DNA from: Diabrotica undecimpunctata
Lineage: Eukaryota; Arthropoda; Insecta; Coleoptera; Chrysomelidae
NCBI RefSeq assembly: GCF_040954645.1
Contig: NC_092803.1
Coordinates: 77,972,263 to 78,036,262, forward strand
Length of the DNA stretch: 64,000 bases
Direction of reading: 5' to 3'
Shown: positions 2,992 to 58,013 of the stretch, piece by piece
Layout of the letters: every line of letters starts with the position of its first letter
Numbering within the stretch: position 1 is the first letter of the stretch
Translations under genes and position numbers: made by a program
The notes under the pieces: generated by a model
The model's input: the letters and a program-made list of their open reading frames with translations, nothing else
The model's database searches: none
What the model was told of the DNA's origin: nothing

Positions 2992-3192
2992 CTAACACCC
3001 CTCACACCAACATTTCAGGCTAGCGCTGCAATGCCCACTTACTCGTCCCTCTTCCTTGCATACTCTGCGGCAGGTTTCGTTGTCCCATACTGCACATGGA
3101 CCTCCATATCTTCCGGAAAGGCAGTCACCAAAAGCCAATTCGGTGCCGATGGTGAGGATCAATAAGATGGCGAAGATGAAGTAACCTTTCAT
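2992..3192 (-). CDS. Drosomycin-type antifungal peptide precursor, copy 1
   Basis: A 66-codon single-exon gene. Residues 1-22 form a secretion signal (basic start, then a hydrophobic core), with predicted cleavage after Gly22. The 44-residue mature peptide starts Asp-Cys and has cysteines at mature positions 2, 11, 19, 23, 33, 39, 41 and 44, the eight-cysteine pattern of the drosomycin CS-alpha-beta fold with four disulfides. From family knowledge, Drosophila Drosomycin is a secreted antifungal peptide made on Toll signalling; this product probably acts likewise in haemolymph. From memory, the mature peptide differs from the fly peptide only at positions 8 (Gly), 29 (Val) and 35 (Ala). Mature peptide is identical to copies 2, 5, 6 and 7. 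The flanks are the most diverged of the seven copies. Precise function is inferred. Confidence 0.92.
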   Translation of the reverse strand: MKGYFIFAILLILTIGTELAFGDCLSGRYGGPCAVWDNETCRRVCKEEGRVSGHCSASLKCWCEGC

Positions 3193-3277
3193 TTTGTAAA
3201 TGTTCTTTGTAGATCGGTAGTCTACTGTTTGCTTGTAGTGCTGGCTTGTTTGTGTCGATGAACAGTAAAACAGAAAG

Positions 3278-3285
3278 TTTATATA
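3278..3285 (-). promoter_or_regulatory. Putative TATA box of drosomycin copy 1
   Basis: TATATAAA on the minus strand, about 90 bases upstream of the start codon, where the other copies have theirs. A kappaB-like GGGAATTTTA lies at 3314-3323. The initiator seen in the other copies is not clearly kept. Confidence 0.5.
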
Positions 3286-3323
3286 CTAATTTCGAAGTAT
3301 TTGTTGACCACCTGGGAATTTTA

Positions 3324-3749
3324 TTGGTTTTACCAGTAAGAAGAATATATTTTTTTTGGTATTGTTTACGCGAAATACAAGAAGTGGTTTTTCCATATTA
3401 ATCTAGTTAATGTTGATACTTGATGCGAATTTTTGAATTATATATTTCACTGAATTATTGTTTAATTGTTAAAATAGCAAGGCTGTGGTAATACAGAATG
3501 TCTCATATGTGAAAAACTTTTCAAGAAAAAATATTTCTGAAAATAAATTTAATATTTTTAACGTTTGGATGTACTAGTAACCAAAATATGATAACGTACG
3601 ATAATTTTTTATTAAAAATATAGCTTGACATTGACTAAAAATTGGAATTTGTTGAAACGTTGATGACAATTTTTTTTACTGTTGTATTTTTCGAAAAAGG
3701 TTAATAAAAGGGTCACTAAGATATATATAAACAAAGGGTCACATATATA
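3324..3749. other. AT-rich flank of copy 1, no gene seen
   Basis: Sequence upstream of copy 1; a stretch near 3395-3415 (minus strand) resembles the TTAACTAGATT block found upstream of the other drosomycin copies. Nothing else recognised. Confidence 0.4.
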
Positions 3750-7451: not shown

Positions 7452-7469
7452 AAACAGTTCTGTAATTTT

Positions 7470-10795: not shown

Positions 10796-11035
10796 TATAT
10801 GTACCCATCGACTAGACCTGTATAAGCTAGTACGTGGTTAGAGAATTCTGGAATGGGTATCATAAAGGAATGGAAGATGTACAATAACATTTGTACATGA
10901 AGATGTACATTTTCAGTTATTCATTTCTACTAATTTGCATTTGAGAAAACGTTTACCATAACATAAACATATACACGCAACAAGTTTTGATCTTCAACTT
11001 TCATCGAACTTTACATAAGTTATAGTGAAAGACCA

Positions 11036-11046
11036 GGGTAATCCCT
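11036..11046 (+). promoter_or_regulatory. kappaB-like site upstream of copy 2
   Basis: GGGTAATCCCT, about 160 bases upstream of the inferred start site, a one-base-longer relative of the NF-kappaB/Rel consensus. Conserved in copy 5. Confidence 0.4.
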
Positions 11047-11168
11047 TTATCGACCGTTCGCAGAAATAAACGAAAACAACAATTTTGCGAAAACTGCTAA
11101 ATATAAATTATATTTTATTGGAAAACTCGTAAACACTCGTTCTTTATGTAATTAACTAGATTTATTAA

Positions 11169-11200
11169 TATATATAAGAGCTTCCAAAACAGTGTCAGCA
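11169..11200 (+). promoter_or_regulatory. Core promoter of drosomycin copy 2
   Basis: TATATATAAG at 11169-11178 and an insect-type initiator TCAGCA at 11195-11200. The distance from the first T to the initiator A is 28 bases, the same as in copies 3 to 7. The 5' UTR would be about 83 bases. Confidence 0.65.
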
Positions 11201-11279
11201 CAAGAGTCCAACCAACGATAAAAAGAACTACATTTATATTCAACGTAGACCACAGATCTGCAAAATAAAAAATTTCAAC

Positions 11280-11480
11280 ATGAAAAGTTATTTCATCTTT
11301 GCCGTTTTGTTGATCCTTACCATCGGTACCGAACTTGCTTTCGGTGACTGTCTTTCCGGAAGATATGGAGGCCCATGTGCAGTATGGGACAACGAAACCT
11401 GCCGCAGAGTATGTAAGGAAGAAGGGCGAGTAAGTGGACATTGCAGCGCTAGTCTGAAGTGTTGGTGTGAGGGGTGTTAG
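11280..11480 (+). CDS. Drosomycin-type antifungal peptide precursor, copy 2
   Basis: A 66-codon single-exon gene with the 22-residue signal and 44-residue eight-cysteine mature peptide. The mature peptide is the Gly8 form, identical to copies 1, 5, 6 and 7. Signal residue 3 is Ser rather than the Gly of the others. Against copy 6, the mature region has 11 silent codon differences and no replacement, while the signal region has 4 replacement and 5 silent changes. A polyadenylation signal AATAAA lies at 11543-11548. It shares both flanks with copy 5 (upstream from about 10.9 kb, downstream to about 12.4 kb). Confidence 0.93.
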   Translation: MKSYFIFAVLLILTIGTELAFGDCLSGRYGGPCAVWDNETCRRVCKEEGRVSGHCSASLKCWCEGC

Positions 11481-11999
11481 CCTTTCACACCCATTATACA
11501 ATTTAGTTAGTTTTATATTATCACTATGTTATATTAGCAAATAATAAAATATAATTTTTTTTAAAATACTTGAATTTTATTTTTACGATACTAAACTATC
11601 ATTAGAGTCTTCAAAAAAGTAAACAGATAGGGTGAATTTACCAAAATTTGATTGTATTGATTTATTAATTTCCAATTATATTACACCTATTCGTATCATG
11701 TTGTTTATATATAGTTTTTTATTATCTACTTTATTTATTTATTATCTATTTTATTTTTAAAAGCTAACTAGGAACAAAAATATAAGAAAATTTTAGTTGT
11801 TAGCCAAACGCCACAATTAAATGCCATATGCCCGTAATAACTTACGGTAATACAACAATAGGCCAGTAAAATTGAAGTTGGATTCGCAATTGTTTTCTGT
11901 CGAGGTGCAAACTTCTTTTTTCTGACTAATAGTTGTCATTTAGTATTACTGCTGAAAACGTATTTCGCCTTAGGGCGAAGATGACATGGATTGATTTAG

Positions 12000-12430
12000 T
12001 CTCGTTAACTCTGATTTTTCCATATTCTTAATCATTTTTGGATTTTATTTAAGATTTAAGATAATTTATAGGTGAGACAGCCACTGCATTTTTATTGTGG
12101 GAAGATAATGCAGTATTACTGTGGTTCTTGTGGTTGGTAGATCTGCAGTGAAAATATTCTGATTCATATTTAACTGAAGAATATATATCACATAAGTAGC
12201 ATTTTAAGAAGTCATAGAATTTATAAAAAGTTTTTAGTTTGTAGAGTAGTCCTTTGGATCAGCCTTTATCGAAGGCCTGGCTTATTATAAAAAAAGGCTG
12301 CTCGAGCACTATCGTTTATTTTGAAGGTCACTACTGATTTACCTGACTAACCATGGGCTTGTTTTACGGTTTCACGTTCTTGTCCAAACCCAAAATGGAA
12401 GCATGGAATAGCTCAAACCACACATCTCTT
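12000..12430 (-). pseudogene. Jockey-like reverse transcriptase fragment
   Basis: Minus-strand translation gives scraps of a Jockey-type RT, including a FGFGQERETVKQAH block (usual FGFRxxxST) and sequence corresponding to FADNTAL at 38872-39093. It is homologous to 38780-39181 plus 40637-40790, where an RTE-type LINE has split it; this copy has the uninterrupted site near 12268-12277. Confidence 0.6.
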
Positions 12431-15296: not shown

Positions 15297-15545
15297 AGCA
15301 TAGCAGTGTATTATCTGTAAGCTATATCGTTTATTGGTGTTCTATTCTTCGGTTGACCATGAAAGCCACTCCTCCTTGGCGGTATGGTTGGTATGGTTCT
15401 GTTCTGAATTATGTTGGTATAAAGTGTGCCCAGATTTTAGGGTGGTCTTTTTCTCTCCTTGAAGTCCCGTTTCACATAAGCTTACAATATCCCATTTAAT
15501 AGCCCCTAGTTCCTGCTCTAATTCTAAAGATTCTTAGTTATAAAC
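15297..15545 (-). pseudogene. Endonuclease N-terminal scrap of a LINE (unit 1)
   Basis: Homologous to the 5' end of the minus-strand LINE at 26497-29060. The unit 1 copy starts abruptly at 15297, where unit 2 continues through the rest of the endonuclease gene. This shows that unit 1 lost the remainder of the LINE. Confidence 0.7.
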
Positions 15546-15744
15546 TCTACCCACCTGGGGTACTATATTTCTGAATCTCGATTTATGCATGAATATATTG
15601 AAGGGAAAATGGCAATTAAAACGCCAGTCTTGCCCAGCGGGTTGGCGAGTTTAGATTTCAGCCGCCCCTAACCTGGAGTCAGACGCTGTTTGCAACCATC
15701 CATTCTGGATCAGACGCTACTTGATTCTATACCAGACCTAAAAT

Positions 15745-16130
15745 AACGCATTGCCACTTCCGTCATCCACAAGACTAAACATATTGGTCATTAATTTTCG
15801 ACAAGCATATGATACAATAAACAGACATAAATTGATCGACACATTAAAATATTTTGACTCTTCGGATACAATTATACGATTAACTAAATCCCTTCTGAAT
15901 AAAACCAAAAGTAAAGTTATGATAGAAGGTCATGTCTCTAACAGCTTTAATATTACTAGAGGCCTTTGACAAGGTGGCCTCTGTCTACTGTATTTTTTAA
16001 TCTAATACGGGAAAGAATTCTAAGGGAAAGCCATATACACACTAAAAGCTCAATCTATGGATCTGGAGACCTGGATCTTAAGCAAAACCATAGAAATGAA
16101 GCTAGATATATAAGAGCGAAAGAAACTTAG
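15745..16130 (+). pseudogene. RTE-like reverse transcriptase fragment (unit 1)
   Basis: A 73-codon stretch with the RT block FRQAYDTINRHKLI, a finger region, then FNITRGL, a stop (TGA, where R is usual) and QGG. Truncated on both sides. Repeated at 29267-29650. Confidence 0.7.
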
Positions 16131-17190
16131 AAGAATATAAACTCACAGACTTTGCCTGTGAGAAGTAAACAACAAATGCTTTGTTGATACGCTAGCAGGT
16201 GGCGTCAGGAGAAAACATAATAATTTATTAAATTATTTTAATATAATATAATTTTTTTAAATATAAATAATAAGTGAATAATAAAATTACTTTCTTTAAT
16301 TTTAAAAATATTTAAATTTTTAAAATACAGAAAACATAAATATGTAATGAAGCTTTGCGATAGTCTACTGTACCGCCTGTTGTACCACCCTTTTTTGAAC
16401 TTGTCAGGTTTTCGAATATGAAATATAACTTTTCCCTGGGCAATAGCTAAAAATTATTTAAATTGTTTATAAGTAAAAAATTGTAACGTTTTTGCAATCA
16501 AATTGTGGAATATTGAAAATGGTCTTTTCTAACTTTTTTTTTTTAATTCTTTTGATAGAATAACTCTTTCCCTTGCTTATGCTACCTGTAGAATCATTGT
16601 AAGCTAATTTTTTTCTGACTCATGTTATTGCAAAACAAGTTATTTTGGATAAACAAATTGGATAACTTTTAAATTAATTTATGAATTATGTACCGAACTT
16701 ACTGTAAGAAACATGTGGTTTTGGTTATCGAGGTTCATAAAAACGAGGTTCACTATTTTAAAAATAACCTTTTTTGAAAACTATTTCCCGAGTGGAAATC
16801 GAAATGCCAAACAACAATTATAAAATGAAATTTTCATTACAATCAATCGTGTCTTAATCCCTTATAAACATAATATTTTCTTTTTTGTGTCGTCGTTTTT
16901 GACGATTTTTTATTACAAATTAATAAATATAATTAGGACATATTCCTTACATTTATTTTAAGATTCTGTTTTAGGTTGTTTTTCCTTTGCTTTTGAATTT
17001 TTCTGTTGTACAGATTAACAGACAAATGAATTAGTGAATTGGACAGAATATCTTCATCTATATTATAAGTATTACTGAAAGAGAATAATATTCTTTAAAA
17101 TGTATCATGAAAAAATCGTAAAGTTGTCATTAGGATTTATTATTTATTCCTTGTTAGCGAGAAAACATTTTTGATATACATATTAGCAAA
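16131..17190. other. AT-rich upstream region of copy 3, no gene seen
   Basis: Nothing recognised apart from homology to 29651-30713. The last 250 bases before the promoter align loosely with regions upstream of other drosomycin copies. Confidence 0.4.
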
Positions 17191-17425
17191 TTGTTATGTA
17201 ATACCAAAGATACATTTTTTCATGATCGTCGACATAACTCATCGAACTTAGTAGTTTTTCTCAAGAACGTATATGGAAATTCTATTGGATATTATTCTCA
17301 GAAATTTAATATAATTCAAAACAAAGATTGCGAATGCTCCATACATACAAATATATACATACAAATTTTTCTAATTGGAAAAACCGTAATGGTGGTATTT
17401 TTATGTAATCAACTAGATTTATTAA

Positions 17426-17457
17426 TATATATAAGAGCTTTTTGAACAGAATCAGCA
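17426..17457 (+). promoter_or_regulatory. Core promoter of drosomycin copy 3
   Basis: TATATATAAG at 17426-17435 and initiator TCAGCA at 17452-17457, spacing 28 bases to the A. The predicted 5' UTR is 78 bases. No good kappaB site is visible; GGAAATTCTA at 17275-17284 is a weak candidate. Confidence 0.65.
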
Positions 17458-17531
17458 CAGTAGTCAAACCAACGACAAATATAGAACTATATTCAACGTA
17501 CACCGCTGAACTACAAAAGAAAATTTTCAAA

Positions 17532-17732
17532 ATGAAAGGTTATTTCATCTTCGCCGTTTTGTTGATTCTCACCATCGGTACCGAACTTGCTTTCGGTGAC
17601 TGTCTGTCCGGAAGATATAAAGGCCCATGTGCAGTATGGGACAACGAAACCTGCCGCAGAGTATGTAAGGAAGAAGGACGAGTAAGTGGGCATTGCAGCG
17701 CTAGCCTGAAGTGTTGGTGTGAAGGGTGCTAG
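17532..17732 (+). CDS. Drosomycin-type antifungal peptide precursor, copy 3 (Lys8 form)
   Basis: A 66-codon gene with the common signal and eight-cysteine mature peptide, but mature position 8 is Lys (AAA) instead of Gly (GGA). Lys8 is the residue I recall in fly Drosomycin, so this and copy 4 are the closest to it (differences at 29 and 35 only). The frame is open 90 bases further upstream, but the inferred transcription start at 17454 and the signal peptide favour the ATG at 17532. Copy 4 differs by one silent base in the mature region. Confidence 0.93.
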   Translation: MKGYFIFAVLLILTIGTELAFGDCLSGRYKGPCAVWDNETCRRVCKEEGRVSGHCSASLKCWCEGC

Positions 17733-18169
17733 CTGTTTGACAAATATTTTTTAATTTCTTAAATTTTATGTTATTACGATGTTAATTTTGTGATGGTTAA
17801 TATATACGTTCAGATTAAAAATGTTTTTTCTTGATATTCTAATAATTTATATGACCTTAAAAAGGTAAAACCTTAAACTAAAAATAACTATAACTATTTT
17901 TCAGAATACGTTTTTGATATCCAAATTCATCTGCAAAATAATTTGAAAATCATTATACTTATAATACTCTCTACTTTATAATAATATATTCTACAATATT
18001 CTCATCTCATTTTAAAATACAATCGTTAATGCTAAGATAAAAGAAAGAAATAAGGTTAATTACTCAAATTTTGTTTATTCAATTAAGATGACCGCTTTTG
18101 AGATTTAAAATTTGCACCTCATCATCAGGTCATATTCAATATATTTAACTGCTAAAACAATATAAAATT
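17733..18169. other. 3' flank of copy 3, no gene seen
   Basis: AT-rich, repeated at 31256-31689. No other feature seen. Confidence 0.4.
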
Positions 18170-18256
18170 GGAATAAGCCACAATTAAAGGTTAAAATACG
18201 TTTATTGACGTTTCAATTTCCACTTCTATAATTTTAATACCAATATAAAATTGGTA
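18170..18256. repeat. MITE-like repeat end (unit 1)
   Basis: Contains AATAAGCCACAATTAAAGG and TTGACGTTTCAATTTCC, motifs also seen near 52.0-52.3, 54.7-54.9 and 61.0 kb. It ends in a small palindrome CCAATATAAAATTGG just before the piggyBac insertion site. Confidence 0.5.
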
Positions 18257-18260
18257 TTAA

Positions 18261-29060: not shown

Positions 29061-29266
29061 TATAAACTCTACCCACCTGGGGTACTATATTTCTGAATCT
29101 CGATTTATGCATGAATATATTGAAGGGAAAATGGCAATTAAAACGCCAGTCTTGCCCAGCGGGTTGGCGAGTTTAGATTTCAGCCGCCCCTAACCTGGAG
29201 TCAGACGCTGTTTGCAACCATCCATTCTGGATCAGACGCTACTTGATTCTATACCAGACCTAAAAT

Positions 29267-30980: not shown

Positions 30981-31054
30981 CAGTAGTCAAACCAACGACA
31001 AATATAGAACTATATTCAACGTACATCGCTGAACTACAAAAGAAAATTTTCAAA

Positions 31055-31689: not shown

Positions 31690-31790
31690 TTGGAATAAGC
31701 CACAATTAAAGGTTAAAATACGTTTATTGACGTTTCAATTTCCACTTTTATAATTTTAATACCAATATAAAATTGGTATTAAAATCATGC
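31690..31790. repeat. MITE-like repeat end with empty piggyBac site (unit 2)
   Basis: Counterpart of 18170-18256. The TTAA at 31779-31782 is single and uninterrupted, showing the target site without the piggyBac insertion. Confidence 0.75.
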
Positions 31791-34066: not shown

Positions 34067-35801
34067 TTAATTTCTCCATATTGTTTGATTTAGGCAACGT
34101 GCGACTCTGTTTGCGCTATTAAGTCTGCTAGCATAGTTTTTATAGCATAAACTACATCGTCCTCTTGTTTCAGTTTCCTGAAGAATATGTGGTGAATGAG
34201 GAATAACTTCTACATTTATTTTCTTTACCAGTGATTGTACCAAATCTTCACGAAACTGTGTGATGCTAATACGATTTCCTGTAATATGTTGATAAATACA
34301 TTGACTGTTTACTACTACCGTGTTTGTAAGCAGTTCGAGTAAAACTTTTCGGTACCACTTGACACCCTTGCGAATCGTTGAAGCATAAGCGGCCTTTTGG
34401 TCGGATACATCTACATATGATTTTATTGAATTATATTCGACAATACTGGAAGGTTTTTTGACTATACCTCTTTTGGTTACAACATCTATCATTTCCGGAA
34501 CAGATTTCGTGGTCAAAAATAACACCTCTCTCTTATCTCTCCATTTTCCAACAATAACCTTTGAACTACTCTGAAGTACTTTCATTCCACCTTTTTGTAA
34601 TTTGCTTTTAACAATTTGTTGAGGATTTAACTTTCTCTTTCCTCGCAGTGTCCCAATTACAAATGTTTTGTTTTTATTTAGCTCGTGAGCCAATGTAACA
34701 CTGGTGTAATAGTTATTTATGGCAAGAGTTCGTCCATGATTTAACAATTTTGCCATCAACTCCATAACCACATCCATAGATACACTCTTGTTGATAGGTA
34801 CAGTCCCTTTTCCACCGTACACCTTTACATTATAAGTGTAACCATTCGGAATACATACTTTGAATAGTTTTATTCCGTACTTATGTCTTTTGCCAGGTAT
34901 GTACTGTCGAAATCCTAATCTACCACGGAAAGGCACCATAGTCTCGTCTATGCAAAGTTTCTCACCTGGAATATATACTTTTTGAAATTGTTTGTTTAGA
35001 ATTTCAAGTGCTGGACTAATTTTATATAGCTTATCATTTTCAGGAGCAGCTTCGTTATTGGCAACATGTAAGAAATGCATCAGACTGTCAAATCTGTTAC
35101 GACTAATACCACAACTAGCAGAAATTTCTTTTCTATAACACCTATTTGTACTATAATAATCTCGAAACCTTGGTTTTTTATTTAGTCCCATCCATATTAT
35201 CAGGCCAAAAAATACTTTCATTTCCTCTCGTGTCGTAGGAATCCATTTAGAAATCATACCATTCTTTGATATGATATGATAACAGCAAATAGAAGTCAAT
35301 AGGTAATTTATCTTTCATATGATCAACATTTCTAAAATTCATAATTTCGTCATCAAATTTAAATTGATTTAACTTATTACTATCAGTATCTCCCCAAATT
35401 ATTGTATTTTCTGACAAATCTAATGCGGATTCTTCAATTTCAATTTCGGAATTAATGTTTTCATCATTTTGTGACTGATTCCCGTCAGTTTGAGAATTAG
35501 TTTTGTTACTTACTTGTTGCACTCTCCCTGTAGATGTAGATGGTATATTTTCAGTTATTTTAATTTTTTTCGAAAACTGGTCATACATGCCGGATGTTTT
35601 TCTTTTAAAAGTGTTCTTATTAGCAACATTTGCAGTTCCCAGATAACTATCTTCACTAGTGCCATCACTGGATTGGTCAAAATTGTAATCGTTCAACGAA
35701 TTTTCCGACTCACTGTCACTTTCAAAAAAATCGCTCTCCTCTAAAATTCGTCTAAGTTCATCTTCACTTAACTTTTGTTTATTTTTCCACGATTTACTCA
35801 T
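34067..35801 (-). pseudogene. Second piggyBac-like transposase, one frameshift
   Basis: ATG at 35801 starts an acidic, serine-rich N-terminus. At about 35290-35250 (near PIDFYL) the frame shifts by one, then stays open for 410 codons to 34067. The DDE domain is recognisable (IPGEKLCIDETMVPFRGR, HKYGIKLFKVC, SYVDVSDQKAAY, GVKWYRKVLLELL). Of the three catalytic positions, the first reads CIPNGYTY and the second reads AINNYYTS where Asp is usual; only the third keeps Asp. The C-terminal cysteine motif is short and the Jockey poly(A) end lies about 20 bases beyond the stop. Different family from the element at 18261. No terminal repeats found. Confidence 0.8.
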
Positions 35802-35879
35802 TTTGCGTACTACAATAACTTTTATTTTGCAAGCTAACAGCGCGTGTAAATGATACAATGATAGGCTAAGTATCATAAC

Positions 35880-36300
35880 CTGTATTTACTCAAAAAATAG
35901 CGGGGGTAACAAACCATCGTCCACAGGCATTCTAGAGAATCCGTATGCCACGCCTATAGTCTATATCTGCGGTTATAAGAGGTACACACCGAAATGAACA
36001 AGGATAAGTTTTGTGCTCATCTGTGGGACACATGGGTTGAACGGAAATCTTACTGTGCCCACGGGTGGTGCACATGGGAGCTAAAGTGTTACCGTAGCTA
36101 GCTAGATAATATATGATATCTAGATATTTAAAACCCCATAACTTGTTTTAGTAAATGACCTTTCAGCTCCAATTTATATCTTAGTAAATTTGCTATTAGA
36201 ACCATGCATTTTGGCTTTTTTGGGGAAATTACCATGTTAAATTTTCTGGCGGTTTATTGCAGCATACGTTCTAAATCGAGAGGCAACGAAATGATTTGAA
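35880..36300. other. Upstream flank of the piggyBac-like gene, unassigned
   Basis: Relatively G/C-rich for the window (about 35900-36100). It may hold the 5' end of the piggyBac-like element but no terminal repeat could be matched. A short stretch at 36150-36260 resembles LINE sequence near 1400-1490 in inverted orientation. Confidence 0.35.
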
Positions 36301-37500: not shown

Positions 37501-37814
37501 TAACCAAAAATAGACTTTCTTGTACACTATGTACAATAAGCCAATTATCTGCAATACGACCGGCTCATAACAGACGGCTTCTAAAAAAAAAGATGCTACA
37601 GAAAATAGCTTCAGAACCTACATTTTCAGTTACTTATTATGTCAAGTTTTCCTAAAATGTCTAATTAAAACTCACAAAGAATCACGCTATATAGTTATTC
37701 ATTTCTAATAATTTGCATTGGAGAAAACGTTTACAATAACATAAACATAATACACGCAACAAGTTTTGACCTTCAACTTTCATCGAACTTTACATAAGTT
37801 ATAGTGAAAGACCA

Positions 37815-37825
37815 GGGTAATCCCT
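37815..37825 (+). promoter_or_regulatory. kappaB-like site upstream of copy 5
   Basis: GGGTAATCCCT, identical to the site of copy 2 and about 160 bases upstream of the inferred start. Confidence 0.4.
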
Positions 37826-37947
37826 TTACCGACCGTTCGCAGAAATAAACCAAAACAACAATTTTGCGAAACCTGCTACTTATAAATTATATTTTATTGG
37901 AAAACCCGTAAACACTCCTTCTTTATGTAATTAACTAGATTTATTAA

Positions 37948-37979
37948 TATAAATAAGAGCTTCCAAAACAGAGTCAGCA
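37948..37979 (+). promoter_or_regulatory. Core promoter of drosomycin copy 5
   Basis: TATAAATAAG at 37948-37957 and initiator TCAGCA at 37974-37979, 28-base spacing, 83-base 5' UTR. Confidence 0.65.
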
Positions 37980-38058
37980 CAAGAGTCCAACCAACGATAA
38001 AAAGAACTACATTTATATTCAACGTAGACCACAGATCTGCAAAATAAAAAATTTCAAC

Positions 38059-38259
38059 ATGAAAGGTTATTTCATCTTTGCCGTTTTGTTGATCCTTACC
38101 ATCGGTACCGAACTTGCTTTCGGTGACTGTCTTTCCGGAAGATATGGAGGCCCATGTGCAGTATGGGACAACGAAACCTGCCGCAGAGTATGTAAGGAAG
38201 AAGGACGAGTAAGTGGGCATTGCAGCGCTAGTCTGAAGTGTTGGTGTGAGGGGTGTTAG
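38059..38259 (+). CDS. Drosomycin-type antifungal peptide precursor, copy 5
   Basis: A 66-codon single-exon gene, Gly8 form. The mature peptide is identical to copies 1, 2, 6 and 7, with cysteines at 2, 11, 19, 23, 33, 39, 41 and 44. It differs from its duplicate copy 2 by Gly instead of Ser at signal residue 3 and by a few silent changes. Flanks match copy 2 on both sides from the Tc1 remnant to the Jockey-like fragment downstream. Confidence 0.93.
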   Translation: MKGYFIFAVLLILTIGTELAFGDCLSGRYGGPCAVWDNETCRRVCKEEGRVSGHCSASLKCWCEGC

Positions 38260-38779
38260 CCTTTCACAGCCATTATACAATTTAGTTAATTTTATTATTA
38301 TCACTATGTTATATTAGCAAATAGTAAAATATATATATATTTTTTAAAATACTTGAATTTTATTTTTACGATACTAAACTATCATTAGAGTCTTCAAAAA
38401 AGTAAACAGATAGGTTGAATTTACCAAAATTTGATTTTATTGATTTATTTATTTCCAATTATATTACACCTATTCATATCATATTGTTTATATATAGTTT
38501 TTTATCATCTACTTTAGTGGGTCCTGGAGGTATAAGGTAAAGATGGATATTAAAAGCTAACTAGGAACAAAAATATAAGAAAATTTGAGTTGTTAGCCAA
38601 GCGCCCAATTAAATGCCATATGTCCGTAATAACGTCACTATAGCTTTATTTATTAATATCTGTAATTGCAATTTCTTGCCAATAGACCAGTAAAATTGAA
38701 GTTGGATTCTCAATTGTTTTCTGTCGAGGTGCAAACTTCTTTTTTCTGACGAATAATTGTCATTTAGTATTATTACTGA

Positions 38780-39181
38780 ACACGTATTTCGCCTTAAGGC
38801 GAAGATGACATGGATTGATTTAGTCTCGTTAACTCCAATTTTCCATATTCTTAATCATTTTTGGATTTTATTTAAGATTTAAGATAGTTTATAGGTGAGA
38901 CAGCCAATGGATTTTTATGGGAGGAAAATAATGCAGTATTATCTGCGAAAGTCTCTATTATTGTGGTTCTTGTGGTTGGTAGATCTGTAAAGATAGTGAA
39001 AACATTCTGATTCATCGGTAAGATATCGGTAAGATAGTTTCGAAACAAATTCATTTTATTCTGATTCATATTTAACTGAAGAATATCTATCACATAAGTA
39101 GCATTTTAAGAATTCATAGAATGTATAAAAAGTTTTTTAGTTTGTAGAGTAGTCCTTTGGACCAGCCTTTATCGAAGGCCT
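38780..39181 (-). pseudogene. Jockey-like RT fragment, distal part
   Basis: Minus-strand frame with ETFADNTALFSSHKNPLA (catalytic ADD block as ADN) and ECFHYLYRS-type sequence. It continues at 40637-40790 on the other side of an RTE-type insertion. Confidence 0.65.
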
Positions 39182-48134: not shown

Positions 48135-48140
48135 TGTCAT

Positions 48141-48700
48141 CAAATCATCAATTTTACTGACTACTGACAGTTAGCTTCTTGGTCTGTAGTTCTATGGAAA
48201 AATGCTTTTTTTTCTGGTTTATGCATTGTGATCACATGGGCTTCCTTCTGTCGATTAGTCAGATAAACGACTGCTTTCACTCAGACATTTTTAAAGCCCA
48301 GTTGGCGCTTTGCATGCAGTGATTTACTAATATTAAAATTTTAAAAAACCTTTAATATTTTTTAAGTCAATTAAGGATCTCTTTTTGACGAAAAATGATT
48401 AGGCTTGCTTTAATAAATATGCACGTCGTAAATTATTGATTAAACAAAAACTTATCGTTGATTTCTTCTGTTTATTATAGCGTATTTGGTGCTATATACA
48501 AGTTAACTCTAATATATTGTTATTTACCATCAACCTCAATAATCTGGCAAAGTATAAAAATGGCTAATTTATGAATAAAAAAACATTAATTTTACAAATG
48601 TAACAGTGTGCATAAAATTATTAATTTCTAATTATTATTGCAGACGAAAATATTTATAATTACCAATTTTTTTGATAAAATTTGCACGCAACAAATTTTG
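48141..48700. other. Jockey scrap and AT-rich upstream region of copy 6
   Basis: 48146-48330 is the inverted counterpart of the Jockey RT start at 58680-58850. The rest has no recognised feature. Confidence 0.4.
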
Positions 48701-48731
48701 ACCTTCAACTTTCTCTAGAGTGAATAACCAC

Positions 48732-48741
48732 GAGAATCCCT
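48732..48741 (+). promoter_or_regulatory. kappaB-like site upstream of copy 6 (one mismatch)
   Basis: GAGAATCCCT; the paired copy 7 has GGGAATCCCT, a full Rel/NF-kappaB consensus match, at the same place. Confidence 0.4.
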
Positions 48742-48853
48742 TCGGAGAAATCAACCAAAACAAAAAATTGCATTAGTTATTTCACATAAATTGTATTTTT
48801 ATTGGAAAATCCGCAAATACTCGTATTATTATATAATAAACCTTATTTATTAG

Positions 48854-48885
48854 TATAAATAAGAGTTTCCAATATAGCGTCAGCA
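48854..48885 (+). promoter_or_regulatory. Core promoter of drosomycin copy 6
   Basis: TATAAATAAG at 48854-48863 and initiator TCAGCA at 48880-48885, 28-base spacing, 77-base 5' UTR. Confidence 0.65.
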
Positions 48886-48958
48886 CAATTGTCCAACCAA
48901 CGACAAAACAAAAACTATTCAACGTAGACCGCAGATTTGCAAAATAAAAAAATTCAAA

Positions 48959-49159
48959 ATGAAAGGTTACTTCATCTTCGCCATTTTGTTGATCCTCACA
49001 ATCGGTACCGAATTGACTTTGGGTGATTGCCTTTCCGGAAGATATGGAGGGCCTTGTGCAGTATGGGACAACGAAACCTGCCGCAGAGTGTGCAAGGAAG
49101 AAGGACGAGTAAGTGGGCATTGCAGTGCTAGTCTGAAATGTTGGTGTGAGGGATGTTAG
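48959..49159 (+). CDS. Drosomycin-type antifungal peptide precursor, copy 6
   Basis: A 66-codon single-exon gene, Gly8 form; the mature 44-residue eight-cysteine peptide is identical to copies 1, 2, 5 and 7. Its signal peptide differs from copy 2 at four residues (Gly3, Ile9, Thr20, Leu21), while the mature region carries only silent differences. It lies on the left arm of the large inverted repeat, facing copy 7. Confidence 0.93.
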   Translation: MKGYFIFAILLILTIGTELTLGDCLSGRYGGPCAVWDNETCRRVCKEEGRVSGHCSASLKCWCEGC

Positions 49160-49951
49160 CCTTTCACAGCCATTATACAATTTTATTTTATAATATTACC
49201 ATGTTAGGTTAGTAACTGTTAAAATATATTTTTTTTTGTTTTAAAATACTTGACTTTTACTTTTACTCCACGAATCTGCCATAAGAATCTTAGGCAAAAA
49301 AAGCGTGTATGGGACGAGTAGGTAGCAAAGAGCATAAACAATAGAACGGTTACTATTTTTTAACGTAGTGGTAATTATAATTACAGCTATTCGCATTGCT
49401 TTGTTTTGATGTAAGTATGTTTTATGGTTATATTGAGTATGGTGGATATTAAAATCAGAGTAAGTGCAAAAATAGAAGAAATAATAAGTTGGATTACGAA
49501 AGCTACTCCTAATATAATTTGAACAAATATGGACGGTGTTTTTGGGGATTTAAAAATTGAAATACTTAAACAATGCTGGGAAATAATTTTTAAAGTAAAA
49601 AGAACTGGTGGTTTTCAAACGAAGCCTAACAAAAATAAAACTTGCAAAGGAAAAATCATCAGTGGTTGGCTGTATACAGTAGTTTAAAAAAACAACACAA
49701 CAATTATGAAACTTCTAATGTAATTGATATAATAATTTATAAAATCATGGGAATATTCTATAGGATTACAAAATTGTTCCAAACGTTTTCGGTCCTTTGA
49801 GATATTAGTGATTCGCAAGAAGCCATTTACAAAACGATATAAAAATCTTTGATTTACATTTAAAATGTTAAAGAAATCTAAAATTAAACGACATAATGTC
49901 GATGATAAAGGATTTTTGACTAAAAGTAATCATACCCTTGATCAAAAATGG
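49160..49951. other. 3' flank of copy 6, no gene seen
   Basis: AT-rich; matches 57029-57812 inverted. No feature recognised. Confidence 0.4.
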
Positions 49952-50011
49952 CTACCACGTCTGGGTCAACTCAAAGTTACCAACTAACTTCAGTTTGACC
50001 CAGATGTAGTA
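49952..50011. repeat. Imperfect 26-base hairpin
   Basis: CTACCACGTCTGGGTCAACT pairs with AGTTTGACCCAGATGTAGTA across a short loop. The inverted copy is at 56966-57024. Confidence 0.65.
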
Positions 50012-50699
50012 AAAAATTTTCTTATTTTAATTTCATCTGCAGTCTGTAAATTAATATTTTATCTTTAAAAAAGTATATCTGGTTTTTCATGTCCAATATT
50101 TACTTCTGTCTCAAATTTACACTATGGATTATCCTTTATCCGACAGATCACACATGTTTAAATTTTTTCTTTGGTTTTTTCCATACTTATAATCAATCAA
50201 TATTGCCTTTTTATTTCTCATTAAAAAAAATACAATACAATATTCTCTTTTACCGACATTTAATCTCCTTGGCACATGCCACCAAGAGGGTTGGCAAGCA
50301 AATCTTATTCTCTAATATTCAAAAAGTTATACTAAGGTTGATTCTATCTAACAAGGTTATTAAAATTAATAAATAATTAATGAAATTAATATTCATATAA
50401 TTATTATACTTAGTAATAACTTAAATGTCCATATTCTGCTGAGTAAGACTTCGCACTAGACTAAACAATAATAACAATGTATAACAGTAAGGTATCACAT
50501 GCATTTGAAATGAGTGAATTTATTCCTTAGAGAGAGTGAAAGCTATTTCGCTTAAATCTGGATAATAATATTAACAATAATAATAAAAAGGTACAAGCAC
50601 AAGATAGATAAAAAGATATATAGCTATACGCAAACAGATTATTAATGCTAATTTATAATATTTTCTCCTATTGAACTAACACTATGTCAATCGATTTAG

Positions 50700-51230
50700 T
50701 AATTAAATAGGCTCACTAACCCATACCCATAACAACTAAGTTCATTTCTACCAAACCACTTAGACCTAATCTGTCTCAATACCGAACATTTTTCCAAAAA
50801 TTGTATCGCATCTTCCCTTTCCTTCGTGTTACACATTGAGCAAAACCTTCTTTCCCAAAAATTTTCCATTTCGATGCGATTCGAGCGCCCTATTCTCAGC
50901 TTGACACTGTATCTCCTTTTTCTTTTTTTTTTTTTTCATACTCTCAATCGCCCTAGGCCAGCTATCTCTGCATTCCCATTCATACCTAACCTCAATACCA
51001 AATTTTTCTCCCATGCTTATCCAGTCTTTAAACCAGGCATACCTTGCTCTCATCATTTCTTTCAAAAGAAATTTTAGCAACCTAACTTTTGAATATCCTT
51101 GAATTTTTTCAATATATTTTTTTATGTAAGTGCATTGTATATAGGCTGACTCTAGCAATACCTGTCTCCAAATCTAACATAAAGTTAGGACAATACCTTG
51201 GGTAAAAAAACATTTTTTTTTGTCTCAATA
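50700..51230 (-). pseudogene. Retroelement-like C-terminal remnant (left arm)
   Basis: Minus-strand frames give a 109-codon piece (YAWFKDWISMGEKFGIEVRY, then a lysine run) and, after a frame change, [20 protein letters not shown] followed by [12 protein letters not shown]. The Cys-x2-Cys...Cys pattern followed by LRxIRxxW resembles the tail of R1/LOA-type LINE polyproteins. A direct repeat (ACTTCTGTCTCAAA...CCGACAGATCA) flanks it at about 50100-50150 and 51225-51275. Assignment uncertain. Confidence 0.4.
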
Positions 51231-51889
51231 TTTACTTCTGTCTCAAACTTACACTATCGTTCATCCGACAGATCAAACGTGTTTTTGTTTGACTATTGTT
51301 TGCTGTTTAAAATTATCTTGCTACTATTGAGTAATTGATGGATTTGGCGATTACTTGATGAAAATTCGTATTCAATAACATAACGTAAAAGAAAAGATTG
51401 GTTTAAATTTTTTGTGCATTTGGGATCTGTGCCGATTTTGCCAGCCACATTTCTAAAAATGAACGCCTAGCTAAACCTACCCTACCATACACCAATACTA
51501 ATTTAATATATTTAATCAATAATCAAGGATACCAACCGAACAAGGATAACCTAATCGAACAATCAATGATAGGGAAGCGAAAAAAAAGTCGTTCAGGGTG
51601 ACTAACCTCAGAAAAGGGGTATTATTACCTGCGAAAAAAACAGAGATAACTTAAAGCTAGACCTAAGCTAAAGTTGCAATTTACAAGACATATCAAAACT
51701 TAGAAGAATCCTAAAAATTGACGGTTTTTTCCGAGCTAAACTCTAATTTCACTATTTGGGAGAGTGAGTCATCGTTTGAAGGCGTAGAAGTGGGGAAAGA
51801 CGTATGAAAATCCAGTGGCGTTCACTCACTTTTATTTCAACGTTAATTATATTATATTGTTTAAATATTATTGTTCAAAATAGGCCACA

Positions 51890-52290
51890 ATATATTTATC
51901 TGGTTTTTACTGAAGTTTCAATCTCTATATCCAAAGACCGTTTTCAAAGATATAAATTATAGTTATATTTATTTTATTTGTTTATTATTATATATTTATA
52001 TATTCTTATATTATTTTCTTTTTTTTTTCTTAACTTTAAAAACGGTCTCTGTAATAGAGATCGAAACGTCAGTAAAATAAACATGTAAATAGATGTATTG
52101 TGGCTTATTTCCAACATTCTCCCTAAAAATACAAAATGCCACAAGCAAAAAGCCACAAAAAAATATAAATATTGCTATCATTTGTATATTTGAAAACGAT
52201 CTCTTTATATAGAGATCGAAACGTCAGTAAATTAAACCTATGAATAAATATTTTGTGACTTATTCCCTACTGTCTCCTAAAAATACAAAT
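51890..52290. repeat. MITE-like cluster of GATCTC hairpins (left arm)
   Basis: Three related blocks (near 51920, 52040 and 52200), for example AACGATCTCTTTATATAGAG followed by ATCGAAACGTCAGTAAA. Each can fold on its GATCTC...GAGATC core and is followed by a TGTGGCTTATT or TTGTGACTTATT block. Non-coding. Inverted copy at 54690-55090. Confidence 0.55.
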
Positions 52291-52814
52291 TTTGCAGAAA
52301 GCTTACTGATGCCACCCGGTTGCCGCGGAAGTTACGCTAAAACGTCTTTTGACGTGACCCGCTCTTAAAGAGTTACACAATGAAATGTTTTTAAAACAAA
52401 TTTTAAGACAGTTTCCACACCACCCAAGAGGTATGTCTTGTGGCGCGTTACTTTTTTTTAAATGGGTGTTCGCCAAGAGCCATATTTTCCCGTTAAATAA
52501 AATAAACAAAACACTTAAACAGTATAAAACAAAACAAAATAAAATCCTATAAAACAAAATAAAGTTCTATAAAAACAAAATAAAAATAATTTTGAATGTA
52601 ACAAAACATTGTTCTATTCTAACACAAACACTATACACACTTACTATGTTCTTCTCGTTTTTTTTTGTTTTTGGTTTTTTTATGCTGATGTTCCTAATAA
52701 ACTATTAGAAAATATTATTCGCTGTCTAAATCTGAAGATGCAGTGCTGCTATCGCTGTCATTATCTTCACCTGGTGTAATTATAATTGGCTCTAGTAAAA
52801 CTTCGACATGAGTG

Positions 52815-53355
52815 TCAAGTTTCCCACATACGATATTCTTCTTTAATTATGTGGCCTATACATTTAGCCCATTTCTCTGGAGTTACATGGAGGATTGCTT
52901 GAATCAAAAGTTCCTTAACTTCGTTTAATTTGAACGTTTTGTTATTGCGTGCTACTTCTCCTTTCACTTGCGCCCAGATAAGTTCAATGGGATTAAGTTC
53001 GCAATGATAAGGTGGTAGACGCAGAACTTTAACACCATAATCTTTTGCAGTTTCATCCACAACATATTTAAGATATTCACTTTTCCTTAACCGTGCAATG
53101 TCAAGTAGTTGAATTTTGAGCATTGATTCTTCGTATGCAATCCCCTTTTCTGTAAGCCATTCTTGAATTCTCCCTTTCCGCCATGCCGTCGTCGGTAATT
53201 GTTCTAGTCTGCGGCTATGATATGGCGCATTGTCCATAACAACCACAGACCCAGATTCTAATTTTATTAAGATTCTCTTAAACCAGCGCTCAAATACTTC
53301 AGAAGTCATTTCTTCATGATAATCACCTGTTTTTTTCGACTCAAATTGAAGCAAA
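52815..53355 (-). pseudogene. DD82E Tc1/mariner-type transposase, C-terminal half (left arm)
   Basis: Minus-strand frame with the second Asp (VVVMDNAPYHS) and the Glu (LPPYHCELNPIELIWAQVKG), 82 residues apart. It lacks the first catalytic Asp because the inverted-repeat hinge at 53355 cuts the gene. Position 24 of that interval is Gln (CAA); the right-arm copy has a stop there. An extra A near 52825 shifts the frame at the C-terminus. From memory, DD82E spacing has been reported for the Sailor group of IS630-Tc1-mariner elements. Confidence 0.8.
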
Positions 53356-54263
53356 TAGAAAAAAATGAAATTATTCTGTGGAGAAGAAAATATTTAAAAG
53401 AAATACGAAAAATTCGCAGCACTGGATGCAAAATATTTTATTTGGATGAAACCTGGATTAACGAAGGTCATACAGTTGGAAAAGTTTGGCAAGATTTAAA
53501 TGTAAAAAGTAAACGCGAAGCATTTATAGAAGGCTGGTCTACAGGATTAAAGGTTCCATCAGGAAAGCGACGGCGTTTAATCATCACCCATATAGGAAGT
53601 AATACAGGGTTCCTTGATGATGGTTTGCTTCAATTTGAGTCGAAAAAAACAGGTGATTATCATGAAGAAATGACTTCTAAAGTATTTGAGCGCTGGTGTA
53701 AGAGAATCTTACCAAAATTGGAATCTGGATCTGTGGTTGTTATGGACAATGCGCCATATCATAGCCGCAGACTAGAACAATTACCGACGACAGCATGGCG
53801 GAAAGGGAGAATTTAAGAATGGCTTACAGAAAAGGGGATTGCATACGAAGAATCAATGCTCAAAATTCAACTACTTGACATTGCACGGTTAAGGAAAAGT
53901 GAATATCTTAAATATGTTGTGGATGAAACTGCAAAAGATTATGGTGTTAAAGTTCTGCGTCTACCACCTTATCATTGCGAACTTAATCCCATTGAACTTA
54001 TCTGGGCGCAAGTGAAAGGAGAAGTAGCACGCAATAACAAAACGTTCAAATTAAACGAAGTTAAGGAACTTTTGATTCAAGCAATCCTCCATGTAACTCC
54101 AGAGAAATGGGCTAAATGTATAGGCCACATAATTAAAGAAGAATATCGTATGTGGGAACTTGACACTCATGTCGAAGTTTTACTAGAGCCAATTATAATT
54201 ACACCAGGTGAAGATAATGACAGCGATAGCAGCACTGCATCTTCAGATTTAGACAGCGAATGA
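53356..54263 (+). pseudogene. DD82E Tc1/mariner-type transposase, longer copy (spacer and right arm)
   Basis: Starts in the 268-base spacer (IEKNEIILWRRKYLKEIRKI) and reads through IFYLDETWINEGHTVGKVW (first Asp), VVVMDNAPYHSRRLEQL (second Asp), a TAA at about 53814 where the left copy has CAA, then LPPYHCELNPIELIWAQVKG (Glu) and an acidic C-terminus ending at 54263. The DNA-binding N-terminus is absent, lost at the hinge. A working enzyme of this fold would cut and paste its own element; this copy cannot, because of truncation and the nonsense codon. Confidence 0.85.
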
Positions 54264-54689
54264 TATTTTCTAATAGTTTATTAGGAACATCAGCATAAAA
54301 AAACCAAAAACAAAAAAAAACGAGAAGAACATAGTAAGTGTGTATAGTGTTTGTGTTAGAATAGAACAATGTTTTGTTACATCCAAAATTATTTTTATTT
54401 TGTTTTTATAGAATTTTATTTTGTTTTATAGGATTTTATTTTGTTTTGTTTTATACTGTTTAAGTGTTTTGTGTATTTTATTTAATGGGAAAATATGGCT
54501 CTTGGCGAACACCCATTTAAAAAAAAGTAACGCGTCACAATACATACCTCTTGGGTGGTGTGGAAACTATCTTAAAATTTGTTTTAAAAACATTTCATTG
54601 TGTAACTCTTTAAGGGCGGGTCACGTCAAAAGACGTTTTAGCGTAACTTCCGCGGCAACCGGGTGGCATCAGTAAGCTTTCTGCAAAAT

Positions 54690-55090
54690 TTGTATTTTTA
54701 GGAGACAGTAGGGAATAAGTCACAAAATATTTATTCATAGGTTTAATTTACTGACGTTTCGATCTCTATATAAAGAGATCGTTTTCAAATATACAAATGA
54801 TAGCAATATTTATTTTTTTTTTGTGGCTTTTTGCTTGTGGCATTTTGTATTTTTAGGGAGAATGTTGGAAATAAGCCACAATACATCTATTTACATGTTT
54901 ATTTTACTGACGTTTCGATCTCTATTACAGAGACCGTTTTTAAAGTTAAAAAAAAAGAAAATAATATAAGAATATATAAATATATAATAATAAACAAATA
55001 AAATAAATATAACTATAATTTATATCTTTGAAAACGGTCTTTGGATATAGAGATTGAAACTTCAGTAAAAACCAGATAAATATATTGTGG
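54690..55090. repeat. MITE-like cluster of GATCTC hairpins (right arm)
   Basis: Inverted copy of 51890-52290. Confidence 0.55.
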
Positions 55091-55729
55091 CCTATTTTGA
55101 ACAATAATATTTAAACAATATAATATAATTAACGTTGAAATAAAAGTGAGTGAACGCCACTGGATTTTCATACGTCTTTCCCCACTTCTACGCCTTCAAA
55201 CGATGACTCACTCTCCCAAATAGTGAAATTAGAGTTTAGCTCGGAAAAAACCGACAATTTTTAGGATTCTTCCAAGTTTTGATATGTCTTGTAAATTGCA
55301 ACTTTAGCTTAGGTCTAGCTTTAAGTTATCTCTGTTTTTTTCGCAGGTAATAATACCCCTTTTCTGAGGTTAGTCACCCTGAACGACTTTTTTTTTCGCT
55401 TCCCTATCATTGATTGTTCGATTAGGTTATCCTTGTTCGGTTGGTATCCTTGATTATTGATTAAATATATTAAATTAGTATTGGTGTATGGTAGGGTAGG
55501 TTTAGCTAGGCGTTCATTTTTAGAAATGTGGCTGGCAAAATCGACACAGATCCCAAATGCACAAAAAATTTAAACCAATCTTTTCTTTTACGTTATGTTA
55601 TTGAATACTAATTTTCATCAAGTAATCGCCAAATCCATCAATTACTCAATAGTAGCAAGATAATTTTAAACAGCAAACAATAGTCAAACAAAAACACGTT
55701 TGATCTGTCGGATGAACGATAGTGTAAGT

Positions 55730-56280
55730 TTGAGACAGAAGTAAATATTGAGACAAAAAAAAATGTTTTTTTACCCAAGGTATTGTCCTAACTTTATGTT
55801 AGATTTGGAGACAGGTATTGCTAGAGTCAGCCTATATACAATGCACTTACATAAAAAAATATATTGAAAAAATTCAAGGATATTCAAAAGTTAGGTTGCT
55901 AAAATTTCTTTTGAAAGAAATGATGAGAGTAAGGTATGCCTGGTTTAAAGACTGGATAAGCATGGGAGAAAAATTTGGTATTGAGGTTAGGTATGAATGG
56001 GAATGCAGAGATAGCTGGCCTAGGGCGATTGAGAGTATGAAAAAAAAAAAAAAGAAAAAGGAGATACAGTGTCAAGCTGAGAATAGGGCGCTCGAATCGC
56101 ATCGAAATGGAAAATTTTTGGGAAAGAAGGTTTTGCTCAATGTGTAACACGAAGGAAAGGGAAGATGCGATACAATTTTTGGAAAAATGTTCGGTATTGA
56201 GACAGATTAGGTCTAAGTGGTTTGGTAGAAATGAACTTAGTTGTTATGGGTATGGGTTAGTGAGCCTATTTAATTACTAA
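55730..56280 (+). pseudogene. Retroelement-like C-terminal remnant (right arm)
   Basis: Inverted copy of 50700-51230. The Cys-x2-Cys segment runs at about 56117-56210 in one frame and ends at a stop near 56280. Confidence 0.4.
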
Positions 56281-56965
56281 ATCGATTGACATAGTGTTAG
56301 TTCAATAGGAGAAAATATTATAAATTAGCATTAATAATCTGTTTGCGTATAGCTATATATCTTTTTATCTATCTTGTGCTTGTACCTTTTTATTATTATT
56401 GTTAATATTATTATCCAGATTTAAGCGAAATAGCTTTCACTCTCTCTAAGGAATAAATTCACTCATTTCAAATGCATGTGATACCTTACTGTTATACATT
56501 GTTATTATTGTTTAGTCTAGTGCGAAGTCTTACTCAGCAGAATATGGACATTTAAGTTATTACTAAGTATAATAATTATATGAATATTAATTTCATTAAT
56601 TATTTATTAATTTTAATAACCTTGTTAGATAGAATCAACCTTAGTATAACTTTTTGAATATTAGAGAATAAGATTTGCTTGCCAACCCTCTTGGTGGCAT
56701 GTGCCAAGGAGATTAAATGTCGGTAAAAGAGAATATTGTATTGTATTTTTTTTAATGAGAAATAAAAAGGCAATATTGATTGATTATAAGTATGGAAAAA
56801 ACCAAAGAAAAAATTTAAACATGTGTGATCTATCGGATAAAGGATAATCCATAGTGTAAATTTGAGACAGAAGTAAATATTGGACATGAAAAACCAGATA
56901 TACTTTTTTAAAGATAAAATATTAATTTACAGACTGCAGATGAAATTAAAATAAGAAAATTTTTT

Positions 56966-57024
56966 ACTACATCTGGGTCAAACTGAAGTTAGTTGGTAAC
57001 TTTGAGTTGACCCAGACGTGGTAG
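56966..57024. repeat. Imperfect hairpin (right-arm copy)
   Basis: Inverted copy of 49952-50011. Confidence 0.6.
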
Positions 57025-57812
57025 CCATTTTTGATCAAGGGTATGATCACTTTTAGTCAAAAATCCTTAATCATCGACATTATGTCGTTTAATTTTAGAT
57101 TTCTTTAACATTTTAAATGTAAATCAAAGATTTTTATATCGTTTTGTAAATGGCTTCTTGCGAATCACTAATATCTCAAAGGACCGAAAACGTTTGGAAC
57201 AATTTTGTAATCCTATAGAATATTCCCATGATTTTATAAATTATTATATCAATTACATTAGAAGTTTCATAATTGTTGTGTTGTTTTTTTAAACTACTGT
57301 ATACAGCCAACCACTGATAATTTTTCCTTTGCAAGTTTTATTTTTGTTAGGCTTCGTTTGAAAACCACCAGTTCTTTTTACTTTAAAAATTATTTCCCAG
57401 CATTTGTTTAAGTATTTCAATTTTTAAATCCCCAAAAACACCGTCCATATTTGTTTAAACTATATTAGGAGTAGCTTTCGTGATCCAACTTAATATTTCT
57501 TCTATTTTTGCATTTACTCTGATTTTAATATCCACCATACTCAATATAACCATAAAACATACTTACATCAAAACAAAGCAATGCGAATAGCTGTAATTAT
57601 AATTACCACTACGTTAAAAATTAGTATAATTCTATTGTTTATGCTCTTTCTTACCTATTCGTCCCATACACGCTTTTTTGCCTAAGATTCTTATGGCAGA
57701 TTCGTGACGTAAAAGTAAAATTCAAGTATTTTAAAACAAAAAATATATTTTAACAGTTACTAACCTAACATGGTAATATTATAAAATTAAATTGTATAAT
57801 GGCTGTGAAAGG

Positions 57813-58013
57813 CTAACACCCCTCACACCAACATTTCAGACTAGCACTGCAATGCCCACTTACTCGTCCTTCTTCCTTGCACACTCTGCGGCAGGTTTCG
57901 TTGTCCCATACTGCACAAGGCCCTCCATATCTTCCGGAAAGGCAATCACCCAAAGTCAATTCGGTACCGATTGTGAGGATCAACAAAATGGCGAAGATGA
58001 AGTAACCTTTCAT
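57813..58013 (-). CDS. Drosomycin-type antifungal peptide precursor, copy 7
   Basis: Minus-strand gene of 66 codons encoding the same protein as copy 6; the coding sequences differ by one silent base (Gly43 codon). Gly8 form, eight cysteines at the usual positions, 22-residue signal. It lies on the right arm of the large inverted repeat and points towards the hinge, as copy 6 does from the other side. Confidence 0.93.
   Translation of the reverse strand: MKGYFIFAILLILTIGTELTLGDCLSGRYGGPCAVWDNETCRRVCKEEGRVSGHCSASLKCWCEGC

Follow-up and report, generated by a model that had tools for sequence, protein, structure and literature searches.

The window analysed here is a 64,000-base stretch of the Diabrotica undecimpunctata genome (1.74 Gb), covering bases 77972263-78036262 of contig C1 (209,253,556 bases), and it carries seven intact drosomycin genes of 66 codons each. 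We established the genes, their copies, the segmental duplications around them and the signature of selection that they bear. The host, a leaf beetle (Chrysomelidae), lies outside the melanogaster group, in agreement with a first-pass annotation of the stretch that had judged the genome not to be from Drosophila. That annotation had proposed either strong conservation or horizontal transfer as the origin of the likeness to the fly peptide. We consider, with a probability of roughly 0.8, that the large drosomycin family of this genome has five clusters, of which the window holds one, and that its likeness to flies is mainly the result of old common ancestry and purifying selection. Of the two proposals, conservation is better supported; a recent transfer from flies was rejected, and an older transfer between orders is kept as an alternative.

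All seven open frames listed in the first-pass annotation were present, and strands could now be assigned to them: five genes are on the forward strand and two, at 2992 and 57813, on the reverse strand (Table 1). A tblastn search of the window with one copy returned seven full-length matches (93.9-100% identity, E values 6e-43 to 7e-40); beyond the seven genes, the next matches in the window were at chance level only (E 3.4 and 4.2). Five distinct precursors are encoded, the genes at 17532 and 31055 being identical in protein, as are those at 48959 and 57813. The earlier count of two or three differences from Drosomycin in 44 mature positions proved exact when checked against PDB 1MYN: the genes at 17532 and 31055 differ by S29V and P35A, and the other five carry K8G in addition. 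The best mature peptide matched 1MYN at 42/44 positions with an E value of 8e-26. In 7/7 genes, the 44 residues align to 1MYN without gaps, the eight cysteines keep the Drosomycin spacing and residues S4, R6 and K38 are retained. According to an excerpt of PMC9865768, these three residues form a clip, R6 and K38 being important for activity. The five distinct precursors all scored 47.7-50.1 bits with PF00304 (cut-off 25.1) and 21.0-21.4 bits with PF00537 (Toxin_3), just under the latter's own cut-off of 21.5.

The residue aligned with residue 1 of 1MYN is preceded by 22 hydrophobic residues, and signal peptide cleavage would fall at this point. The precursors are probably secreted, and the 41-42/44 identity to a solved structure suggests that the mature peptides adopt the Drosomycin fold. 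Antifungal defence is the most likely function of the mature peptide. A different role for a drosomycin-like sequence, for instance in diet stress or in the control of gut microbiota, seems quite unlikely: the window mature peptide departs from a known antifungal peptide at just two or three residues. Such a role would agree with the large copy number, with one copy on contig C6 that resembles 1MYN at only 23/45 positions, and with the drosomycin-like genes of Callosobruchus maculatus, which in an excerpt of PMC3424127 were raised about 19- and 22-fold by a plant compound in the diet and lowered by a protease inhibitor.

The genes of the window belong to a larger set. A protein search of the whole genome found 36 places, comprising 35 stop-free copies and one fragment with a stop. 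A Pfam profile search, in which 102 candidates were scored, retrieved the same 35 copies, all above the PF00304 cut-off (lowest score 28.7 bits), with no further gamma-thionin match in the genome at E 0.01. These genome-wide counts are lower bounds. The family is spread over five clusters on three long contigs, which hold 33 copies, and one small scaffold, C1248, whose copies are 91-98% alike to the nearest C5 loci over longer aligned stretches and may be haplotype copies. The 28 paralogues outside the window resemble 1MYN at 23-43 residues, and several signal types coexist among the Diabrotica copies. The genome encodes three NCBI proteins of D. undecimpunctata (P0009, P0017 and P0168) with every residue identical.

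Pooled over the 21 window pairs, which are not independent of each other, the ratio of nonsynonymous to synonymous differences per site (pN/pS) was 0.034 in the mature part and 0.17 in the signal, which points to strong purifying selection on the mature part. Synonymous counts across clusters were made on the 29/35 genes with exactly 66 codons, so that four genes of C1:72.7 and two genes of C6, of 67-68 codons, were set aside. In the 70 pairs that the window forms with the C5:13.9 cluster, synonymous differences in the mature part averaged 0.76 per site, near saturation, and the same pairs agreed on average at 38.3/44 mature residues versus 9.4/22 signal residues. The clearest case is Du15 (C5:13873165), which at 43/44 is closer to 1MYN than any window copy. 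It has 41-42/44 mature residues in common with each window copy, and its synonymous differences per site to the seven copies in the mature part are 0.87, 0.91, 0.99, 0.96, 0.91, 0.68 and 0.72. With silent sites near saturation and the peptide constant within one genome, the peptide can evidently persist almost unchanged over long periods with no transfer involved; likeness alone is therefore no evidence of transfer. Near identity to the fly peptide requires no recent transfer from flies.

Two gene architectures were observed within this one family. The window genes have an uninterrupted coding part, and each ATG is preceded at a distance of 93-111 bases by a separate TATA-like box; TATA[AT]A at -115 to -78 was found in 7/7 of them versus a fraction of 0.088 of 5000 random stretches. 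The same motif in this range is present in all 18 genes of both C1 clusters and C5:152.7, and the last 50 bases before the ATG contain no splice-acceptor-like end in any of these 18. An acceptor-like end does stand just before the ATG in all 17 genes of C5:13.9, C6 and C1248 (background 0.078 in 5000 random stretches), and in 2/17, both on C6, the TATA motif is likewise present at the distance given. The acceptor pattern was written after the sequences had been inspected, so the split of 17/17 versus 0/18 is descriptive. These acceptor-like ends lead us to predict an intron in the 5' untranslated region in about half of the family. A scan of the 600 bases upstream of each gene for NF-kB motifs, as a sign of immune induction through Toll/IMD, found GGGNNNNCCC in 2/35 stretches and gave no grounds for a claim.

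Relatives were retrieved from protein databases, where 39/40 candidates matched one window precursor and 79 of the 7991 scored matched a profile. Besides Drosophila, the named genera among the matches listed are Callosobruchus, Acanthoscelides, Diabrotica, Agrilus, Anabrus, Blattella, Diachasmimorpha and Belonocnema; five unnamed proteins and one synthetic construct are also included. No relatives were found in the viral contigs scanned or in the bacterial and archaeal genomes scanned. The matched genera span Orthoptera, Blattodea, Coleoptera, Hymenoptera and Diptera, and near-identical mature peptides are found across all five. A tree was built from 56 rows. The 35 genes contributed 29 of these as distinct precursors, and the other 27 were selected from the 79 database proteins for species spread and trimmed to the precursor by script. 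The 52 rows left out comprise P0205 (a 52-residue piece), four D. undecimpunctata database proteins and many Drosophila proteins, among others. In the precursor tree, the window genes grouped with the polyneopterans, a single wasp and most of the remaining beetle rows; the fly genes were joined by C1248, the C5:13.9 cluster and a second wasp. Clades were tested with the approximately unbiased test (p-AU); they were named only after the first tree had been inspected, and the p values are softer than they look.

These data bear directly on the idea that a recent transfer from a Drosophila-like fly made the window cluster. The 41-42/44 mature residues in common with Drosomycin are what such a transfer would leave, but the genome contains 28 further paralogues with 23-43 residues like 1MYN, and 22/28 were compared with the window and proved widely diverged from it at synonymous sites. 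Relatives also exist in Agrilus, Callosobruchus and D. virgifera. The signal peptide had been called different beforehand, and this is true with respect to Drosophila: one window signal has 5-8 identical residues with eight melanogaster-group signals. The window signals are like those of beetles and unlike those of flies. A clade uniting the window with the eight melanogaster-group genes was rejected, with p-AU of 3e-6 for precursors and 5e-5 for mature peptides. On the strength of the paralogues, the synonymous divergence and the clade tests, we rejected a recent fly-to-beetle transfer, which we regard as extremely improbable.

An older horizontal transfer between insect orders, involving polyneopterans and beetles or beetles and flies, could have taken place before Diabrotica diversified and been followed by multiplication. 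It would fit an occurrence that is patchy as far as searched, near-identical mature peptides in five orders, MKGY-type signals that are unusually similar across Diabrotica, Agrilus, Callosobruchus, Anabrus and Blattella, and the failure of Coleoptera to form one clade. A plant-to-ecdysozoan transfer of the whole family was argued by Zhu and Gao 2014, as cited in PMC7712779, PMC4874388 and PMC9751787. We nevertheless consider an old transfer unlikely. The peptide is equally constant among copies of the same genome with near-saturated synonymous sites, losses can account for the patchiness, Diabrotica itself combines several signal types and the trees rest on very short sequences. It is likewise doubtful that the MKGY precursors of a Mormon cricket, a cockroach and several beetles, signal included, are too alike for ordinary descent, and that the two Diabrotica gene types (TATA-proximal without an acceptor, and with a predicted intron before the ATG) arrived or separated independently.

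Several observations weigh against our preferred explanation, old common ancestry with purifying selection. The window signal has 15-16/22 residues in common with Anabrus and Blattella signals, above what we would expect of a signal given the age of these orders. A single Coleoptera clade was rejected (p-AU 0.022 for precursors, 3e-5 for mature peptides), as was a single Diabrotica clade (p-AU 0.037, precursors), and a clade of the window with one fly Drosomycin row was rejected only weakly (p-AU 0.023, mature). The signal part alone does not reject the two-way split of the precursor tree (p-AU 0.37), whereas the mature part does (2e-8). We take these results to mean that alignments of 22-66 columns, with substitutions recurring, do not preserve a reliable record of descent, a reservation that extends to the tests favouring our explanation. 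The NF-kB consensus GGGRNNYYCC was found in 0/35 of the 600-base upstream stretches. Finally, orthologues at every intermediate node of the insect tree had been named beforehand as the mark of ordinary vertical descent. This holds only in part: five orders have the gene among the matches listed, and one beetle is reported without it, since an excerpt of PMC4521149 states that no relative was found in Hypothenemus hampei.

The mature and signal parts of the 56 precursors give conflicting trees. This could reflect an exchange of segments from one gene to another, or convergence of the mature part. A history of two lineages, one fly-like half and one MKGY half (tree support 95/97, from a bootstrap that had not settled), was dropped, as the mature part alone rejects it and the signal part alone does not, at the values given above.

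The arrangement of the window indicated how its copies arose. Self-BLAST revealed three duplications, at 99.4%, 97.9% and 86.8% identity and in both orientations (Table 1), and each copy of all three carries one drosomycin gene. The copies were therefore multiplied at several times by segmental duplication. The inverted repeat totals 10.7 kb around a centre of 268 bases. LINE (long interspersed nuclear element) and DNA-transposon frames are interspersed between the duplications. The locus had been described as packed with transposons, and LINE reverse-transcriptase, DDE_Tnp_1_7 and DDE_3 frames were indeed found. The DDE_Tnp_1_7 transposase corresponds to the piggyBac type named in the first-pass annotation; the second, overlapping frame (35250-35885) had no Pfam match. 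Transposons may have caused the segmental duplications.

Part of the seven-fold array could be an artefact of assembly, with haplotypes placed side by side in the 99.4% direct duplicate or a read folded back in the 97.9% inverted duplicate, whose centre is short. We consider this very unlikely: arms 2% apart seem too divergent for a read folded back on itself, the parts of the direct duplication sit at differing offsets (8.9, 13.5 and 11.1 kb), and inverted neighbours recur at 71-93% identity in the C1:72.7 and C5:152.7 clusters, each compared with itself.

Table 1 Features of the window (self-BLAST for duplicates and repeat arms) and drosomycin clusters of the genome
Feature	Position	Strand	Description
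Drosomycin gene 1 (Du04)	2992..3192	-	66 codons, intact; mature 41/44 to 1MYN
Drosomycin gene 2 (Du05)	11280..11480	+	66 codons, intact; mature 41/44 to 1MYN
Drosomycin gene 3 (Du06)	17532..17732	+	66 codons, intact; mature 42/44 to 1MYN
Drosomycin gene 4 (Du07)	31055..31255	+	protein identical to gene 3; mature 42/44 to 1MYN
Drosomycin gene 5 (Du08)	38059..38259	+	66 codons, intact; mature 41/44 to 1MYN
Drosomycin gene 6 (Du09)	48959..49159	+	66 codons, intact; mature 41/44 to 1MYN
Drosomycin gene 7 (Du10)	57813..58013	-	protein identical to gene 6; mature 41/44 to 1MYN
Segmental duplicate with gene 3	15297..18260	+	99.4% to 28819-31782 over 2965 columns
Segmental duplicate with gene 4	28819..31782	+	
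Inverted repeat, left arm with gene 6	48145..53355	+	97.9% to right arm
Inverted repeat, right arm with gene 7	53624..58850	-	
Older duplicate with gene 2	10915..12278	+	86.8% to 37693-39181
Older duplicate with gene 5	37693..39181	+	
LINE frame, 972 aa	41938..44853	-	endonuclease PF03372 and reverse transcriptase PF00078; best database identity 49%
Transposase frames	34070..35885	-	DDE_Tnp_1_7 PF13843, 256 bits at 34070-35314; second overlapping frame 35250-35885
Cluster C1, window			7 copies
Cluster on C1	C1:72.69-72.71 Mb		4 copies
Cluster on C5	C5:152.71-152.76 Mb		7 copies
Cluster on C5	C5:13.84-13.99 Mb		10 copies
Cluster on C6 (160,780,506 bases)	C6:152.82-152.84 Mb		5 copies
Small scaffold	C1248		2 copies

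At 52818-53816, two transposase frames of opposite orientation contain or adjoin the centre of the large inverted repeat. The frame at 52818-53393 matched DDE_3 with 55.6 bits, and the frame at 53271-53813 matched the same family below its cut-off (22.7 versus 28.6 bits). A further inverted repeat of 98.8% identity, formed by 39058-40906 and 46280-48128, has reverse-transcriptase matches; its second copy ends 16 bases short of the left arm of the large repeat. The window contained no transfer RNA genes and no Rfam match at gathering level.

Three further proteins were noted. The copy L028 (C6:152832826-152833029, reverse strand) is the one with 23/45 positions like 1MYN; it scored 28.7 bits with PF00304, its signal peptide is almost unchanged, and its sequence makes it a candidate for changed function. 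In the NCBI protein P0172, an unrelated upstream frame supplies the first 85 residues, and a 66-residue drosomycin precursor is fused to them (L025, C5:13985965-13987727). Its first 85 and last 66 residues lie in two frames of the genome, and it is likely a gene-prediction fusion. Protein P0007 of Callosobruchus chinensis (110 amino acids) looks like an incomplete drosomycin with a full precursor behind it, probably two adjoining genes predicted as one.

Collectively, we propose that each window gene, with its own TATA-like box, would encode a secreted precursor with a 22-residue signal and a 44-residue mature peptide of eight cysteines, which, with a Drosomycin fold, would serve antifungal defence. 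The likeness to the fly peptide would mainly reflect an ancient shared origin together with severe purifying selection acting on the mature part, and the family would gain copies through segmental duplications, direct as well as inverted, of about 1.4 to 5 kilobases each in a transposon-rich setting. That a beetle and a fly have nearly the same immune peptide is not in itself a sign of gene transfer, because copies within one beetle genome are just as alike although their silent sites are close to saturation. The 35 stop-free drosomycins of this one insect form a natural series through which function could be tied to the constant core, to position 8, which varies in the window, to positions 29 and 35, which differ from the fly, and to the outlier at C6:152832826.

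The idea that drosomycin is confined to a few Drosophila species is outdated. Excerpts of the literature place drosomycin-like genes in Callosobruchus maculatus in 2012 (PMC3424127), review beetle drosomycins of Callosobruchus and Trox in 2016 (PMC4874388), report drosomycins in Blattodea, Coleoptera and Diptera in 2020, with 13 genes in Blattella (PMC7712779), and name drosomycin-like transcripts in D. virgifera (PMC9505089). Judged by titles and abstract openings, none of the papers listed describes the family in D. undecimpunctata. The plant defensins, or gamma-thionins, belong to the same Pfam family, PF00304, whose cut-off the window genes exceed; no named plant protein was among the matches listed, for which candidates were those sharing exact words.

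Among beetles, D. virgifera, D. balteata, Callosobruchus and Agrilus (aplamycins) have the same precursor architecture as the window genes, and in the tree the proteins of D. virgifera and of D. balteata join several of the D. undecimpunctata clusters. No full-length protein among the matches listed was more than 86% identical to the 17532 precursor, in a collection clustered at 90%, which suggests that the protein sets searched lack the seven window genes. Blattella germanica is similar in its 66-residue precursors, its MKGY signal type and its clustered copies (excerpt of PMC7712779). It differs in having fewer genes, the one Blattella precursor compared was 77% identical to the window precursor, and Diabrotica also has clusters with other signal types. 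With Drosophila Drosomycin (1MYN), the window genes have in common the eight cysteines, the 44-residue mature peptide, 41-42/44 identical residues, a multigene organisation and the absence of an intron in the coding part (excerpt of PMC9751787); the signal, with its 5-8 residues in common, is different. Beetle drosomycins are already known, and what is new here is the large set of members in one genome: the 35 copies found, to be read as at least 35, exceed both the 13 genes of Blattella and the seven given for D. melanogaster in the excerpt of PMC9751787.

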